Source: Candidatus Altimarinota bacterium
GTDB taxonomy: Bacteria; Patescibacteriota; Gracilibacteria; BD1-5; UBA2023
Reading direction: 5' to 3'
DNA: 64,000 nt
Assembly: GCA_028714815.1 (NCBI GenBank)
Contig: JAQTLR010000003.1
Coordinates: 5,099 to 69,098, forward strand
In this document: piece after piece, positions 9,135-19,304 of the stretch
Layout: each line of letters begins with the position of its first letter
Position numbering within the stretch: the stretch's first letter is position 1
Notes under the pieces: generated by a model
What the model saw: the letters and a program-made list of their open reading frames with translations, nothing else
Databases searched by the model: none
What the model was told of the DNA's origin: nothing
Position numbers and translations under genes: made by a program

Positions 9135-10646
9135 CTAGAATATATCCATTGCTTCATCCGCCAGTGATGGCGTTGCTTTTTGTGGCTGCTTCCCGGTACC
9201 TCATCGACGGATATCGATCCGGTACCCGGCTCCGAAAAGGGTATCGAGCGTTTCCTGGAGAAAGAGCCGCACATCGGCGGAGTCGAGTTTCTTGTGGTTG
9301 AAATCGTTATCCGGATGTATCACGATCGTATCCCCTTCTTCGCTGTAGGTCGATACCCGAAGTCCGAGTCAGACGAAAGAGCGTTTCGGAACCGTGCGGA
9401 TATGTTCGATGAATCGGCTGAAATCGAAGGAATTGGCTGGTTTCTGGGAAGAGAGAGTCTTTTCTTCAGGTACTTCCACCTCATCCCCGTCCCTTCTCCT
9501 AGAAGGAGAAGGGGGATTTTTCTCACTTTTTGTTCCCTCTCCTTCTAGGAGAGGGTTAGGGAGAGGTGTATTAGGGGAGACGTGCAGAGTTTTTACTGCC
9601 TTCTTTTCCAATACGTGAGTTTCTACAGAAAAAGCGGACTGAGCAGCAATGCACCGGAAAGCGCTCGTCTCAAGGAGCAGGAACGGATCCGGAGAGAATT
9701 TCAGCCGCCCGTATACCCCTTCGAAGAGTTCGAAGAGTTCGGCATAGGCACTGAATTCCGCCTTTTTCAGAGAATCTTTCATACGATCCCGGAGAAAAAA
9801 GAGGAGCTGCTCCAGAAAGAGCCGTACATCCAGGCTCTTTTCACGGAGAAAAGTGAGATTTTTGAGCGTTTTTTCGCTGTCTTTCACGACAAGCGATTCG
9901 GTGAAATCCGAAAGGAAATCTTCTCCGATGAGTTCCAGGTTCTCTTCGATATACTTCCGCTTCAGAACTCCTCCGACGCTATATTGTTCGAAGAGTGTGA
10001 TAGCATCGCGGAGCCCCCCTTTGGCAAGTCTCGCGATAAGCTCCAATGCGGATTCTTCCACCTGGATCTTCTCTGCATGCGCGATGAAGTGCAACCGCTC
10101 GATGATATCCTCAGCCTTGATCCGCTTGAAATCATAACGCTGCGAACGGGATATGATCGTATCGGGGATCTTGTGGATCTCGGTCGTCGCGAGGATGAAC
10201 TTCACGTGCTTCGGCGGTTCTTCGAGGGTTTTCAGAAGGGCGTTGAAAGCCCCTTTCGAGAGCATGTGCACCTCATCGATGATATAGACTTTGTATGGCG
10301 CCTGGGTCGGCTGGAACTGAGCACGTTCGATCATGTCCCGGATATTATCCACTCCCGTATTGGAGGCAGCATCGATCTCGATGATATCGAGGAGGCTTCC
10401 GTTTTCCGCATCGCGACAGTTCTGGCACTCCCCACACGGGTTCCCGTCGGAGGTGAGCGAGAGACAGTTTACCCCCTTCGCGAGAATCCGCGCCACGGTC
10501 GTCTTCCCGGTCCCCCGTGATCCATGGAACAGGTATGCTCCGACGGTACGATTCTGGAGAAGGGCATTCTGCAAAACCTCCCGGACAAAGGTTTGTCCGA
10601 AAAGAGAATGGAAATCTTTGGGTCGATAAGTCTGGTACAGCGCCAT
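9135..10646 (-). CDS. dnaX: DNA polymerase III subunit gamma/tau
   Basis: 503-residue clamp-loader ATPase. Motifs: P-loop HGSRGTGKTT (about 43-52), zinc-binding CGECQNC cluster (about 76-82), Walker B IIDEVHML, sensor-1 ATTEIHKIPDTI, then the three-domain clamp-loader body. Two UGA-Gly codons (Gly426, Gly482) add the last 80 residues. Residues about 360-390 (PLPNPLLEGEG...PSPSRRRDG) are encoded by a palindromic repeat that has inserted in frame into the flexible linker. The stop is TAG at 9135. Confidence 0.95.
9477..9568. repeat. REP-like palindromic repeat, family A, inside dnaX
   Basis: Terminal CACCTCA / AGAGGTG and inner arms CCCTTCTCCTAGAAGGAGAAGG and its relative around 9534-9555. It is clearly homologous to the intergenic copy at 39172-39252 but lies wholly inside the dnaX reading frame. 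Confidence 0.85.
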
Positions 10647-10810
10647 TACGAGAGGGGGAAATGGGAAAATATATAGAATCAGTATACGGATGATGGGGGA
10701 AAAACAAAATTTAACCGAAAGTTTTTTTATAACTCCATTGCTTTTTCAGAAAAAATCATTATATATAATCTCTGTCAAGATACATAAAGACTCTTTCAAA
10801 AGAATTAAAA

Positions 10811-12607
10811 ATGAAAAAAAACCTTCAAACAATCCTTTTTGCCGGAAGTCTCGCCCTTTTGGGTGGAGATATTGTCACGTGATCGAAAGACCACGAAGTA
10901 ATTCTTGAATCCACCCCATCTACAAAAACCACTATCGCAACAACGAAAGACAAGATATATGCCCTAACAAGCACGAATCTTTGGGCAGATACCCCGGAAA
11001 AGGAAAAACAAAAAATAAGGAATATTTTTTTACAGGAAATGGGACGTGATATAAATGAAGAAGATATAGGAAAACTTACCACGCTTCTACAAAAAAAAGA
11101 AGTCAAAGATGAGCTCTATTCCATCCTCAAGGAAGATCAAAGATGGGCCATGGGCCGTCTCATATTAGCGCTCCTTCTTGGAATCGGTTATGGATATGCC
11201 TATCTGGCGCAGATCGTAGGACAAATCAAGGAAGGGAAGGAAGTGAATGTCAAAAGCTTTCTCACTTTTTGATCCATCAGCGGTGCTATGATGATCTTGA
11301 ACGGTTTTGATCCTTGATCCCTTGTGTATTTCGAATCCTTTGTGCTTGCATTCGTGAGCGTCGCTATCGATAAATACAACTCGAAACATGGACGCCATCA
11401 TAAAAACAATCTCTTCAAACAATTCATCGCAAATGTTCCGCTCCCCATGTCACAATATACCAATGAAGGATTCCCTCTCGAGTGGAACCCGAAAATGGAA
11501 GAAGAAACAGGGTTTTCCCATACGGAAATAATAGCCCATTATAACAAGAAGAAACTGGAACTCCCTCCTGAAAGATGGTTGTACATCATCATGGAACTTC
11601 TTTACAAGGGAGAAAACCTCAAAAAAGTGGAAAGGTATTTAGAAAGGAAATCGGAGGGATATACTAATGTCGCCTTTACGATGGATACAAAATTTGGAGA
11701 AAGGACATTCTCTTGGTCCATATTCCCCGATAAAGCCAGTGGCGGCGATATACGCATCGCCAAACATCTGACAGATGCCGGAGAGATCAGAGCGGAACTG
11801 AAAAAAACAGAAGAACTTCTCATAGCAGAACTGGAGAAAACAAAAAAAGAACTCTCCGAAGAAGAAAGGCTTCGTCGGGAAATAGAAGAACAATCCAAAA
11901 AGGATAGCCTTACAGGAGTATACAATATAAAGGCATTTGATGAGGATATAAACCGTATCCTCAAAGAATATACCGAACGGAGTATGGTAATGGCTAAGAT
12001 CGATATCGATGATTTCAAGGCCTTTAATGACAGATATGGACATGAATTATGATGAGATATGGTTCTGCGGAAACTCGCTGAATTCATACAGGCGAATCTC
12101 TACCGAAAAGGCGATACACTCTATAGGGTCGGAGGAGACGAATTCATCATTCTCATGGAAAGCGACGATTTCGATGGTGTTGTAAACAAACTCAATAACA
12201 TACGACACAAACTTTCTCAAGAAGCCATTGTTATCAATGGAAAGGATATACCGCTTAGAATCGGAAGCAGCTGGGGAATTACGAAATTCAAAACAGGAAG
12301 ATATTCTCCGGAAGAATCCATAAAAAATATCATCATCGAACTCAAGTCCCAATCAGACGAATACATGTATGTAGTGAAACACTATAAAAAATACCTCGGG
12401 ACAGAACTCCTTATGCAACGGAAAATACTGGAAAATGCCACGGAAAAAAATGGTATCGCGCGAGCGGTATACGACTGAGACGGAAGCATCGTTGGGGTGG
12501 AAGTGTTCAACGAATACGGAAATTTCACCATCACCCAAAGGGAATTTGAAGTCATACGGGAAAAACAAAGAAATGATCTTGATGCAGGGAGACGTTCAGA
12601 CATATAA
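10811..12607 (+). CDS. Membrane-bound diguanylate cyclase (GGDEF)
   Basis: 598 residues read through six UGA-Gly codons. N-terminal hydrophobic segment (1-20), an extracytoplasmic region, a second membrane segment (RLILALLLGIGYGYAYLAQI, about 118-137) and probably a third, a soluble part with a coiled coil (about 330-365), then a GGDEF domain. The domain starts at DSLTGVYN and has KIDIDDFKAFND, GHE-LGGD and the intact active site RVGGDEF (439-445). RKGD at 432-435 fits the inhibitory RxxD site five residues upstream. It should make cyclic di-GMP. The LGGD turn is coded by tandem UGA UGA at 12050-12055. A hairpin terminator follows. Confidence 0.88.
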
Positions 12608-15748: not shown

Positions 15749-16663
15749 TTAGAGTTGATAATTATTCTCCAGATTTTTTATACGGTCATCTAAACTTGGG
15801 TGGGACATGAAGAGATGGAGGAATCCTTTTTCGGAATGGATCTTGAACGTAGCAAGCTTCCCATCGTCCACGATCTCTCGGCTCGCAACGACATGCTGCA
15901 ACCGCTTCAGAGCGAGAATCATCTTGTCTTTCCCGACGAGACGGGAACTCCCCTCATCGGCACGGTATTCCCGATGACGAGAAAAGGCCATGAGCACGAG
16001 GGAGGCGAGGATACCGAGAACCATTTCCATCACCATGACGGAGATGAAATATCCCCATCCGTGCCCCTCGTCATTCTTCAGGATCGTTTTATCGATGATC
16101 TCACCGATAATGCGGGCGAAAAATATCACGAAAGTATTGAGAACCCCTTGCAATAAAGTCATGGTAACCATATCACCATTCAATATATGGCTCATCTCAT
16201 GGGCGATCACCCCTTCGACTTCGGAAGAGGTCATACTCGTGAGGAGTCCAGTCGAAACCGCGACGAGAGAACGGTTCTTCGACGGTCCTGTCGCGAAAGC
16301 GTTCGGATCTTCGCTCATATATACCCCCACTTCCGGCATAACGATGCCGTTTTGTTTCGCAAGACCCGCAACGGTGGTATAGAAGAGCTGTGTTTTCTGG
16401 TCATAGTCCATAAGCCGGCTCTCGGAGAGGAGTTTGATATCATACGCCCTTTTCGCCATCCATCGGGAAATCGCGAGACTCAGGAAGGACCCGGCAAACC
16501 CGAATATGAGCGCAAAAAGGAAAAGCCCTTGATATCCGTTGGAAATATTCGGGGTTATTTGAATACCGAAATACCGTTCCAAAACAAATATGATGGCCGT
16601 TATCACGAGGATGATCGCGATATTCGTAAGGAGGAAAAGGAAGATCCGTTTAAAGAAGTTCAT
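15749..16663 (-). CDS. htpX: Protease HtpX
   Basis: 304-residue membrane zinc metalloprotease for quality control of membrane proteins. Two N-terminal transmembrane helices (7-28 and 45-65), the zinc site HEMSHILNGD (HExxH) around residue 153, two further hydrophobic segments, and the distal Glu ligand in SRHREYRADEGS. The length is usual for the family. No internal UGA. It is first in an operon with an unknown helical protein and an amidohydrolase. Confidence 0.96.
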   Translation of the reverse strand: MNFFKRIFLFLLTNIAIILVITAIIFVLERYFGIQITPNISNGYQGLFLFALIFGFAGSFLSLAISRWMAKRAYDIKLLSESRLMDYDQKTQLFYTTVAGLAKQNGIVMPEVGVYMSEDPNAFATGPSKNRSLVAVSTGLLTSMTSSEVEGVIAHEMSHILNGDMVTMTLLQGVLNTFVIFFARIIGEIIDKTILKNDEGHGWGYFISVMVMEMVLGILASLVLMAFSRHREYRADEGSSRLVGKDKMILALKRLQHVVASREIVDDGKLATFKIHSEKGFLHLFMSHPSLDDRIKNLENNYQL

Positions 16664-16724: not shown

Positions 16725-18008
16725 CTAGAGAAAATGTTCCAATACCGTTATCTTTTCCTCCGGAATCTCTCCGATGTCTCGAATATATGGGACAAGAAAC
16801 TGGGATGGAACGATATGGATATGTATTTTCTGTAAAGATTTTCTCAAAATAGAAACCTGAAAATATTTGCAACACGTTGCAATATACAGAATCGGATTCT
16901 TTGAATATATGACATCAAGGAAGGATCTGAGGCTCGGTGTTTTTGGAATCATACCTTCACTCTCTACCTTGGAGGGGAATGGGGAAATAAGTCAGAGGTC
17001 GTGGTACGTCACCATGGAAAAAATACCGGATTTATTCACCTCACGGACCACAAGCGGTCCGAGGAATCGACTCACGCTATGGAGCCAGATAACATCAGGG
17101 GTATTGCCCCCCTGAGAAGGGGGGTTGGGGGGTTGGATTTTTTTCCGGATCCCGAAGGTGGAAGTGATATTGCAGAGAGAATACGGAAGCCCCATGAGCC
17201 GAAGGATCCTAGTCCACTTCCCTTTGGGGAGATCCCATCCGAAAATCTCGACCTCGTATCCGTGTTTCCGGAGGGTTCGCGCGATGGTCTGCACATGGGT
17301 TTCGATCCCACCGAGGAGGGTCGTATAGTCGCTTACGAGAAGTATTTTCCCGGTACCAGCCGGAAGCATCTCCCGAACCTGCCGCATCCATCGCCCCTCG
17401 GTATAGCTATCCGCGATACGCCTCGATTCATGGGAAAGGGTATCCCAGTCGGACCCCTCTTCTCCCAGAAGAGCAGGAAGGGAAGAATATTTCTCCGCAA
17501 CCTCCACGATTTTACTGGAAAGAGCTTCGATATTCTCCCCATCATCCGAGGAGAAAGGAACAGCGAGATCCTTCGGGATGAAGGGGATAAGCCCCCCTTT
17601 CTGGAAGCCTATGACGGGAACCCCCTCGGAGAGAGATTCGAGCGCAGCGAGACCGAAGGTCTCGAGGAATCGCGACGGCATAAGGGAAAAATGGGAGACC
17701 TCCAGAACGCCCCGTATCGTGGAGAGCGATTGCCATCCGAAAAAGTAGATTTTGAAATCTTCTCACTCTTCTGAAATACCCAGAAGTTCCATCTTTTCCA
17801 GTATCTCCTCTCCCGAGAGACGGGAACAATCCTCGAAAAATGGGGTTCCGGAAAATTTTCAGAAAAGATCCCCCTGAAGATCCCCTTCCCCGAACAGGAA
17901 GAAATTCCCGGGCAATTCCCCGGTTTTATGCACGATATTTTCGAGAGAACGGACGAGCAGATCGAATCCCTTCTCTTTTGCGAGCCGTCAGAAAAATATG
18001 AAGTTCAT
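16725..18008 (-). CDS. GT4-like glycosyltransferase with circularly permuted GT-B halves
   Basis: 427 residues across four UGA-Gly codons. It begins directly with what is normally the C-terminal, nucleotide-sugar-binding half: FIFFGRLAKEKGFDLLV, FLFGEGDL, and the EX7E motif ETFGLAALE (E116, E124) with GVPVIG. After a linker (about 205-219) the normal N-terminal acceptor half follows: GKILLVSDY, LGGIETHVQTIARTLRKHGYEV, a DVIWLHS strand, and PSQFLVPYIRD...EKITVLEHFL, exactly where the domain usually hands over to the C-terminal half. Then TAG. Residues 293-301 (PPNPPSQGG) come from a G/C-rich palindrome. It follows the O-antigen-ligase-like gene by 21 nt. Alternative: a fusion of two partial genes. 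Confidence 0.8.
17106..17135. repeat. G/C-run palindrome inside the glycosyltransferase gene
   Basis: CCCCCC TGAGAA GGGGGG followed by TTGGGGGG TTGG. It resembles one arm of the family A repeats and encodes a low-complexity PPNPPSQGG loop. Confidence 0.45.
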
Positions 18009-18029: not shown

Positions 18030-19304
18030 TTAAACTTTTTTCTTCCTCTTCCCGATAAACAACCCCAATACTAAGAACAATATGAGCGATATGTACACGG
18101 ATTCGAAACTATGTAAGAACAGGTTCATCGTCAGAACCGCCACGAACGAGGCGAAGAAGGTCGGCGAAAGCGGAAGTATCATCCAAGCGATAGTGGCCAT
18201 GATGGCACAGAATAAGACAAAACCGATAATCCCTCATTCCACGAGCTGTTGGATGTACCAGCTCTCTGGAATATAGTAGTCTTCGGTATGTTCGATCGCC
18301 CCTCCATAAATCGGGCTATCGGAGAGTTTCATTACATACCGGTAGGCAGGTCAGGCTGTTCCAAGTCCTTGCCCCATCGGATGTTCCCGGAACCGTTTAA
18401 GTCCCGTTATGGCCCGGTCGAAATGCCCTTCCGAAGACCCTGACCGTATGATGATCTGACTGATGGTTCCTTCATACCGGAGATAGAAGAGTCCGGAAAT
18501 GACCGTGAGGAATACCACTATATATACGCTCTCCTTTTTGTATTTCCGCCAGATCGTCCCGAGAGAGAATACAACCAATGCAAGACACCCGACCACAAGC
18601 CCTATGAGGGAGCTGCGTGAATACGTGAGGAATATGAGCCCGAGAAGGACGATGATCCAGAGTCCTACGAGGAAATGGTAGGATTTTTTGGATCGGAAAT
18701 GGTGCACCAGAAGCCCGATATAGACAAGGATGAAATACGCTGCCGGATTCGGACCGTCGAAAATCCCCTGGAACCGTTTCACGTTTGCCCGGTCGATCCC
18801 ATGGTAGATAGGAGGGGTTCCACCGAAGCTCCAGTTGGAGAGATTCGGGGAAAAACCGAAATGAAGGAGGATGGTCTCATGGAAAACGAAGCGCACCAAG
18901 AGCCCAGCAAAAAGGGCGAAACTTGCCGAGATGAGGAATATCCTCAGGTACCGGGAAACCGTTCCCGTAAGGAGCATGCTCCCATGCTTTGCGATCAGGA
19001 ACGCGACCAGGAATTCGAAATCGTATCGTCCGCCATAAACGAGCGACGCGATTCAGAGTCCGTTGTAAAGGGTGATGATCACCAGATATCCTATATATGA
19101 GGCGATCAGATAATCGAGGATGTCGAACTTCGGAAGTGTCCTCTTCTTCCAGAAATCCCATATGAGGAAACTGGCAAGGAGAACCAAAAAGATTTCTTTA
19201 AAGAAACTCACTCCGGGAATCCCGAGCTTGCTCCCGAAAAATACGGTTCCGAGAACGCTCCATGGAAGGATGGCAAGAAAGATGCGAAAAATACGGTCGA
19301 ACAT
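18030..19304 (-). CDS. O-antigen ligase / polymerase-like membrane protein
   Basis: 424 residues with about 10-12 transmembrane helices. A long central loop (NLSNWSFGGTPPIYHG...RANVKRFQGIFDGPNPAA) and the RAITGLKRFREHPMGQGLG segment are typical of the Wzy/WaaL/O-antigen ligase superfamily, which joins or polymerises lipid-linked glycans at the outer face of the membrane. Three UGA-Gly codons (19053, 18351, 18234) are bridged, one in GQGLGTAG. It shares an operon with the glycosyltransferase, which suggests a surface polysaccharide or glycoprotein pathway. Confidence 0.85.

Follow-up and report, generated by a model that had tools for sequence, protein, structure and literature searches.

A bacterial GT4-type glycosyltransferase with swapped GT-B domains, probably the product of a circular permutation at the inter-domain hinge

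Few sugar-transferring enzymes are as common as those of the GT-B type, which normally carry the N domain first and the C domain second. Canonical members of family GT4 (PF13439 plus PF00534; BshA, MshA, PimB', GlgA) share both domains, the GRLxxKG and EX7E motifs, the Gly-Gly loop and the His-Asp motif with the enzyme that we describe here, which differs in having the domains in reverse order, with the chain opened at the hinge and linked across the old termini. A reverse-order fusion of GT-B domains has been described for Alg13 and Alg14 of Amoebozoa (Entamoeba, Dictyostelium), with a proposed origin from split genes (PMC8993221). As in our case, the C domain is encoded before the N domain and split genes occur in the same group; in contrast, Alg13-Alg14 is GT28/MurG-like and eukaryotic, whereas the enzyme studied here is a bacterial GT4 whose permuted form is predominant and apparently old. 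The GT28 domains PF03033 and PF04101 have no match among the families listed for 20 members of the permuted group. The GH70 glucansucrases, with a circularly permuted GH13 barrel (PMC11046441), are another naturally permuted group of carbohydrate-active enzymes, although their fold and reaction are unrelated. Among the open-access papers that we searched for permuted GT-B or GT4 enzymes, which may miss earlier reports, we found only Alg13-Alg14 and unrelated permuted proteins. A swapped GT-B enzyme is thus already known from another family in Amoebozoa, and in the open literature we came across no previous description of one in GT4 or in bacteria.

The gene lies in a window of 64,000 nucleotides, the whole stretch of DNA that was analysed, from a genome of the Gracilibacteria type, in which TGA is reassigned to glycine. 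Reading TGA as Gly is required for the frame to be open, with four in-frame TGA codons at residues 7, 50, 82 and 339. The coordinates in the initial annotation were right; the coding strand is the minus strand (Table 1). Its start codon at 18008 follows the end of the ligase-like ORF at 18030 with a gap of 21 nt, and htpX begins 61 nt downstream of its end. As that annotation had also stated, there is no further GT half on either side; elsewhere in the same genome, the search for a second half returned only two canonical GT4s, with weak similarity in the C domain.

Table 1 Features of the permuted GT4 locus, in window coordinates.
Feature	Coordinates	Strand	Remarks
Permuted GT4 glycosyltransferase gene	16725..18008	-	427 aa, code 25 (TGA=Gly), stop codon included
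Wzy_C (O-antigen ligase/polymerase-like) gene, directly upstream	18030..19304	-	conserved neighbour in family f1
htpX protease gene, downstream neighbour	15749..16663	-	adjoins permuted GT4 gene only within same genus
C-half, nucleotide-sugar-binding Rossmann domain, first	17352..18008	-	aa 1-219; Pfam PF00534/PF13692
N-half, acceptor-side Rossmann domain, second	16728..17351	-	aa 220-427; Pfam aa 233-423, profile A4
New junction, old C-terminal helix to old N-terminal strand (..REMLPAGT/GKILLVSDY..)	17349..17366	-	34 members compared
GRLxxEKG motif	17967..17990	-	aa 7-14; R8, K13 invariant
EX7E motif (ETFGLAALE)	17637..17663	-	aa 116-124
Gly-Gly loop of N domain	17307..17312	-	aa 233-234
His-Asp of N domain	16998..17003	-	aa 336-337; active-site His by homology
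New C-terminus EKITVLEHFL	16728..16757	-	inter-domain hinge of canonical relatives

The proposal that the GT-B halves of a GT4 enzyme are swapped is borne out by the domain assignments. The C domain (Glycos_transf_1/Glyco_trans_1_4, PF00534/PF13692) occupies aa 3-174, scoring 38.7 and 40.4 bits against curated cut-offs of 26.4 and 27, and the N domain (Glyco_transf_4, PF13439/PF13579) follows at aa 233-423, also above the curated cut-offs (37.7 bits against 28.5 for PF13439); this is the reverse of the canonical order, in which N precedes C. Both GT4 domain families are matched in all 20 members of alignment A1, which comprises the permuted GT4 proteins of the source family, f1. Residues invariant in A1 include R8, E12, K13, G14, E116, F118, G119, G233, G234, H336 and D337, and most of the invariant residues also hold in the wider half alignments of 34 sequences. 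From PimA/MshA-type enzymes, we take the EX7E motif, the Arg/Lys pair, the Gly-Gly loop and the His to be markers of the GT4 active site.

The start, linker and stop were said to sit at domain borders, and both borders are indeed clean. At the junction, no more than a few residues connect the old C-terminal helix to the old N-terminal strand. At the other border, the permuted protein ends in EKITVLEHFL, while in the canonical relative L084 the corresponding EKIVVLPHFL stands before the C domain. The C-terminus of some members retains an apparent remnant of the old linker (PHSVDTQIFYP in L019, PHSFDKEVFYP in L020). The protein therefore has the arrangement of a circular permutant, with new termini at a domain border and the old termini joined.

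We also noted several insertions. A GC-rich, partly palindromic insert at window positions 17100-17132 is in frame and encodes PPNPPSQGG, and the relatives L033 and L034 carry like inserts at other sites (PPTPLYQGG and others). A similar stretch occurs near 9507-9550, in a dnaX-like gene (9135-10919); these inserts resemble a repeat family tolerated inside genes. In the same-genus copy in L035 (6001-7401), the N-half is lengthened ahead of the HD motif by a charged insertion of about 45 aa.

For structure prediction, we built an AF2 model of a same-genus relative, L036, from seven sequences. It reached a mean pLDDT of 71 and a pTM of 0.57, with the N-half weak in parts; for the window protein itself the pLDDT was 59, with a poor N-half. 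Residues 1-210 of the L036 model align to the C domains of canonical GT4 structures with Z scores of 14-16. The N-half shows strand-helix alternation, and the structure match lists (Foldseek/VIA) are filled by the C domain, which is why we did not read the missing N-domain matches as a new fold. A sequence search of the N-half profile against the PDB returned no glycosyltransferase at a meaningful E-value. The two Rossmann domains would be expected to pack into the usual GT-B cleft.

Homologues with the same order, which the initial annotation had suggested looking for, are widespread. Among 59 relatives searched, collinear C-then-N matches share 70-78% identity within the genus and 31-38% in other genera of f1. 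In a class-wide profile search the order recurs in a second recoded family, f13, which from its recoding and class we guess to be Absconditabacteria (SR1). Altogether, translated loci contain the C-then-N order as a single ORF in 49 genomes of these two families (20 in f1, 29 in f13). Exactly one N-half match is present in 23 of 27 f1 genomes, and a strong one in 45 of 49 f13 genomes. The permuted GT4 is absent from families f2 and f3, which belong to the same order as f1 and are also recoded; two f2 genomes (G564, G044) have a canonical N-then-C relative. Viral contigs, searched for more relatives, contained none with the N-half. In most same-genus pairs with unsaturated synonymous sites, dN/dS is about 0.1 in each half (range 0.08-0.28). 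Both halves are under purifying selection.

We think it likely that this gene encodes a working, retaining GT4-type glycosyltransferase, probably serving glycan assembly, and that an ancestor of the lineage acquired it by circular permutation at the inter-domain hinge. That it could instead be an assembly artefact or a decayed pseudogene gains something from a frameshifted same-genus relative (L037) and from an f1 relative with an in-frame TAG between the halves (L025), but the recurrence across those genomes, the invariant motifs and the low dN/dS in both halves leave this next to no credence, and we rejected both misassembly and pseudogene on the independence of the genomes and on selection. 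In particular, a misassembly at the junction, named in advance as a way for the claim to fail, is excluded by dozens of independent genomes. A chimaera, in which the C-half of one GT4 was fused to the N-half of a different GT4 to give a new specificity, deserves somewhat more thought: tandem GT4 genes are common, and the C-half, being similar throughout the GT4s, is not decisive by itself. We ran profiles of both halves against 287 genomes of the phylum, and 11 of the 18 best N-half ORFs were also among the best C-half matches (for example G388:C78, G402:C109, G315:C3 and G314:C6); these shared canonical top matches had the N-then-C order in all that were read. The permuted proteins form one clade in the C-half tree and one in the N-half tree, where they adjoin this shared canonical GT4 group. 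When the C-half tree was constrained to the sister group of the N-half tree, it came out 4 log units above the free search, and the two half-trees are compatible (AU p 0.58). The canonical genes common to both profiles and the compatible half-trees argue against the chimaera, which we regard as improbable. Because both halves point to one canonical group and the protein now ends in the former hinge motif, permutation of one parent is indicated rather than fusion of unlike enzymes; an origin of both halves from one parent subfamily is best supported by these sequence comparisons, though not proven.

How the permutation arose is a closer question, given the variety of layouts in f13. In G104 (L149), a gene for the C-half is followed after 14 nt by a separate gene for the N-half; in G207 (L146/L147), the halves are two genes on different contigs; and in the incomplete genome G246 (L148), we found the N-half alone. 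G193 (L145, 431-1666) carries a canonical N-then-C fusion inside the permuted clade, which either survives from before the permutation or has reverted to the original order. These forms bear on a different route, in which the parent was split into N-domain and C-domain genes acting as a heterodimer and was later re-fused in reverse, with the enzyme working in the same way; the Alg13-Alg14 case is a precedent (PMC8993221). We rooted a careful concatenated tree on canonical GT4s; in it, the permuted, split and canonical-order proteins together form one clade (100/100). Its basal division lies between two groups of permuted proteins, and the f13 clade (98/92) contains the split forms, so splitting looks secondary. 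Two other topologies were not rejected by the AU test: one in which the permuted proteins form a clade that excludes the odd forms (p 0.136), and one in which G193 branches outside a group of permuted and split forms (p 0.302). Of the suggestion that separate genes were ancestral, then, the split and canonical forms and these unrejected placements stand in its favour, whereas the late splits in the best tree speak against it, and we consider this route unlikely. The best tree favours an old permutation, later splits and one return to canonical order. Tentatively, one orthologous GT-B enzyme may even exist in four layouts in a single bacterial clade: fused C-N (ancestral there), adjacent genes, distant genes, and the fused N-C form of G193, its permutation reversed by splitting and re-fusing.

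The neighbouring genes offer hints about the role of the permuted enzyme. In nearly all f1 loci that reach far enough upstream, a Wzy_C-type gene precedes the permuted GT4, and in most f1 loci it overlaps the GT4 start by 8-32 nt. Restriction-methylase-type genes stand between the two in L035 and L036, both of the same genus, and FtsW/RodA lies further upstream in two loci. Around the f13 copies, trmD and other housekeeping genes are frequent; an MraY/WecA-like gene or a MurG gene occurs in single cases, the MurG, in canonical order, adjoining one copy. Surface glycan assembly is suggested by the f1 gene following, and mostly overlapping, an O-antigen-ligase-like gene. This neighbour was not found in f13, and the pathway suggestion therefore rests on f1. 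The likeliest role would be a step in the assembly of a lipid-linked or surface glycan.

In the mechanism that we favour, an ancestral GT4 gene of the lineage would have undergone circular permutation with the hinge between the domains as its breakpoint, so that a short linker joins the old termini and the old hinge becomes the two chain ends. The first half would bind the nucleotide sugar through R8, K13 and the EX7E motif, and the second, with its Gly-Gly loop and His-Asp motif, would bind the acceptor, the halves packing as in other GT-B enzymes. Retaining transfer would then place a sugar on a glycan, lipid-linked or at the surface, that the adjacent Wzy_C-type enzyme uses. Packing, catalysis, substrate and pathway are what we infer here.

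In a common fold such as GT-B, evolution can alter the order of the domains without releasing the gene from selection, and the case warns that annotation expecting one domain order, or the standard code, misses such genes. The interest lies in the age and breadth of the permutant and in the alternative layouts beside it. If one enzyme does occur in all four layouts, the order of the domains could vary freely, and each half would function as a chain of its own. Together with the split and canonical forms in sister genomes, the permutant offers a direct test of whether a covalent hinge is needed for closure and catalysis, and a way to test how circular permutations arise in nature.
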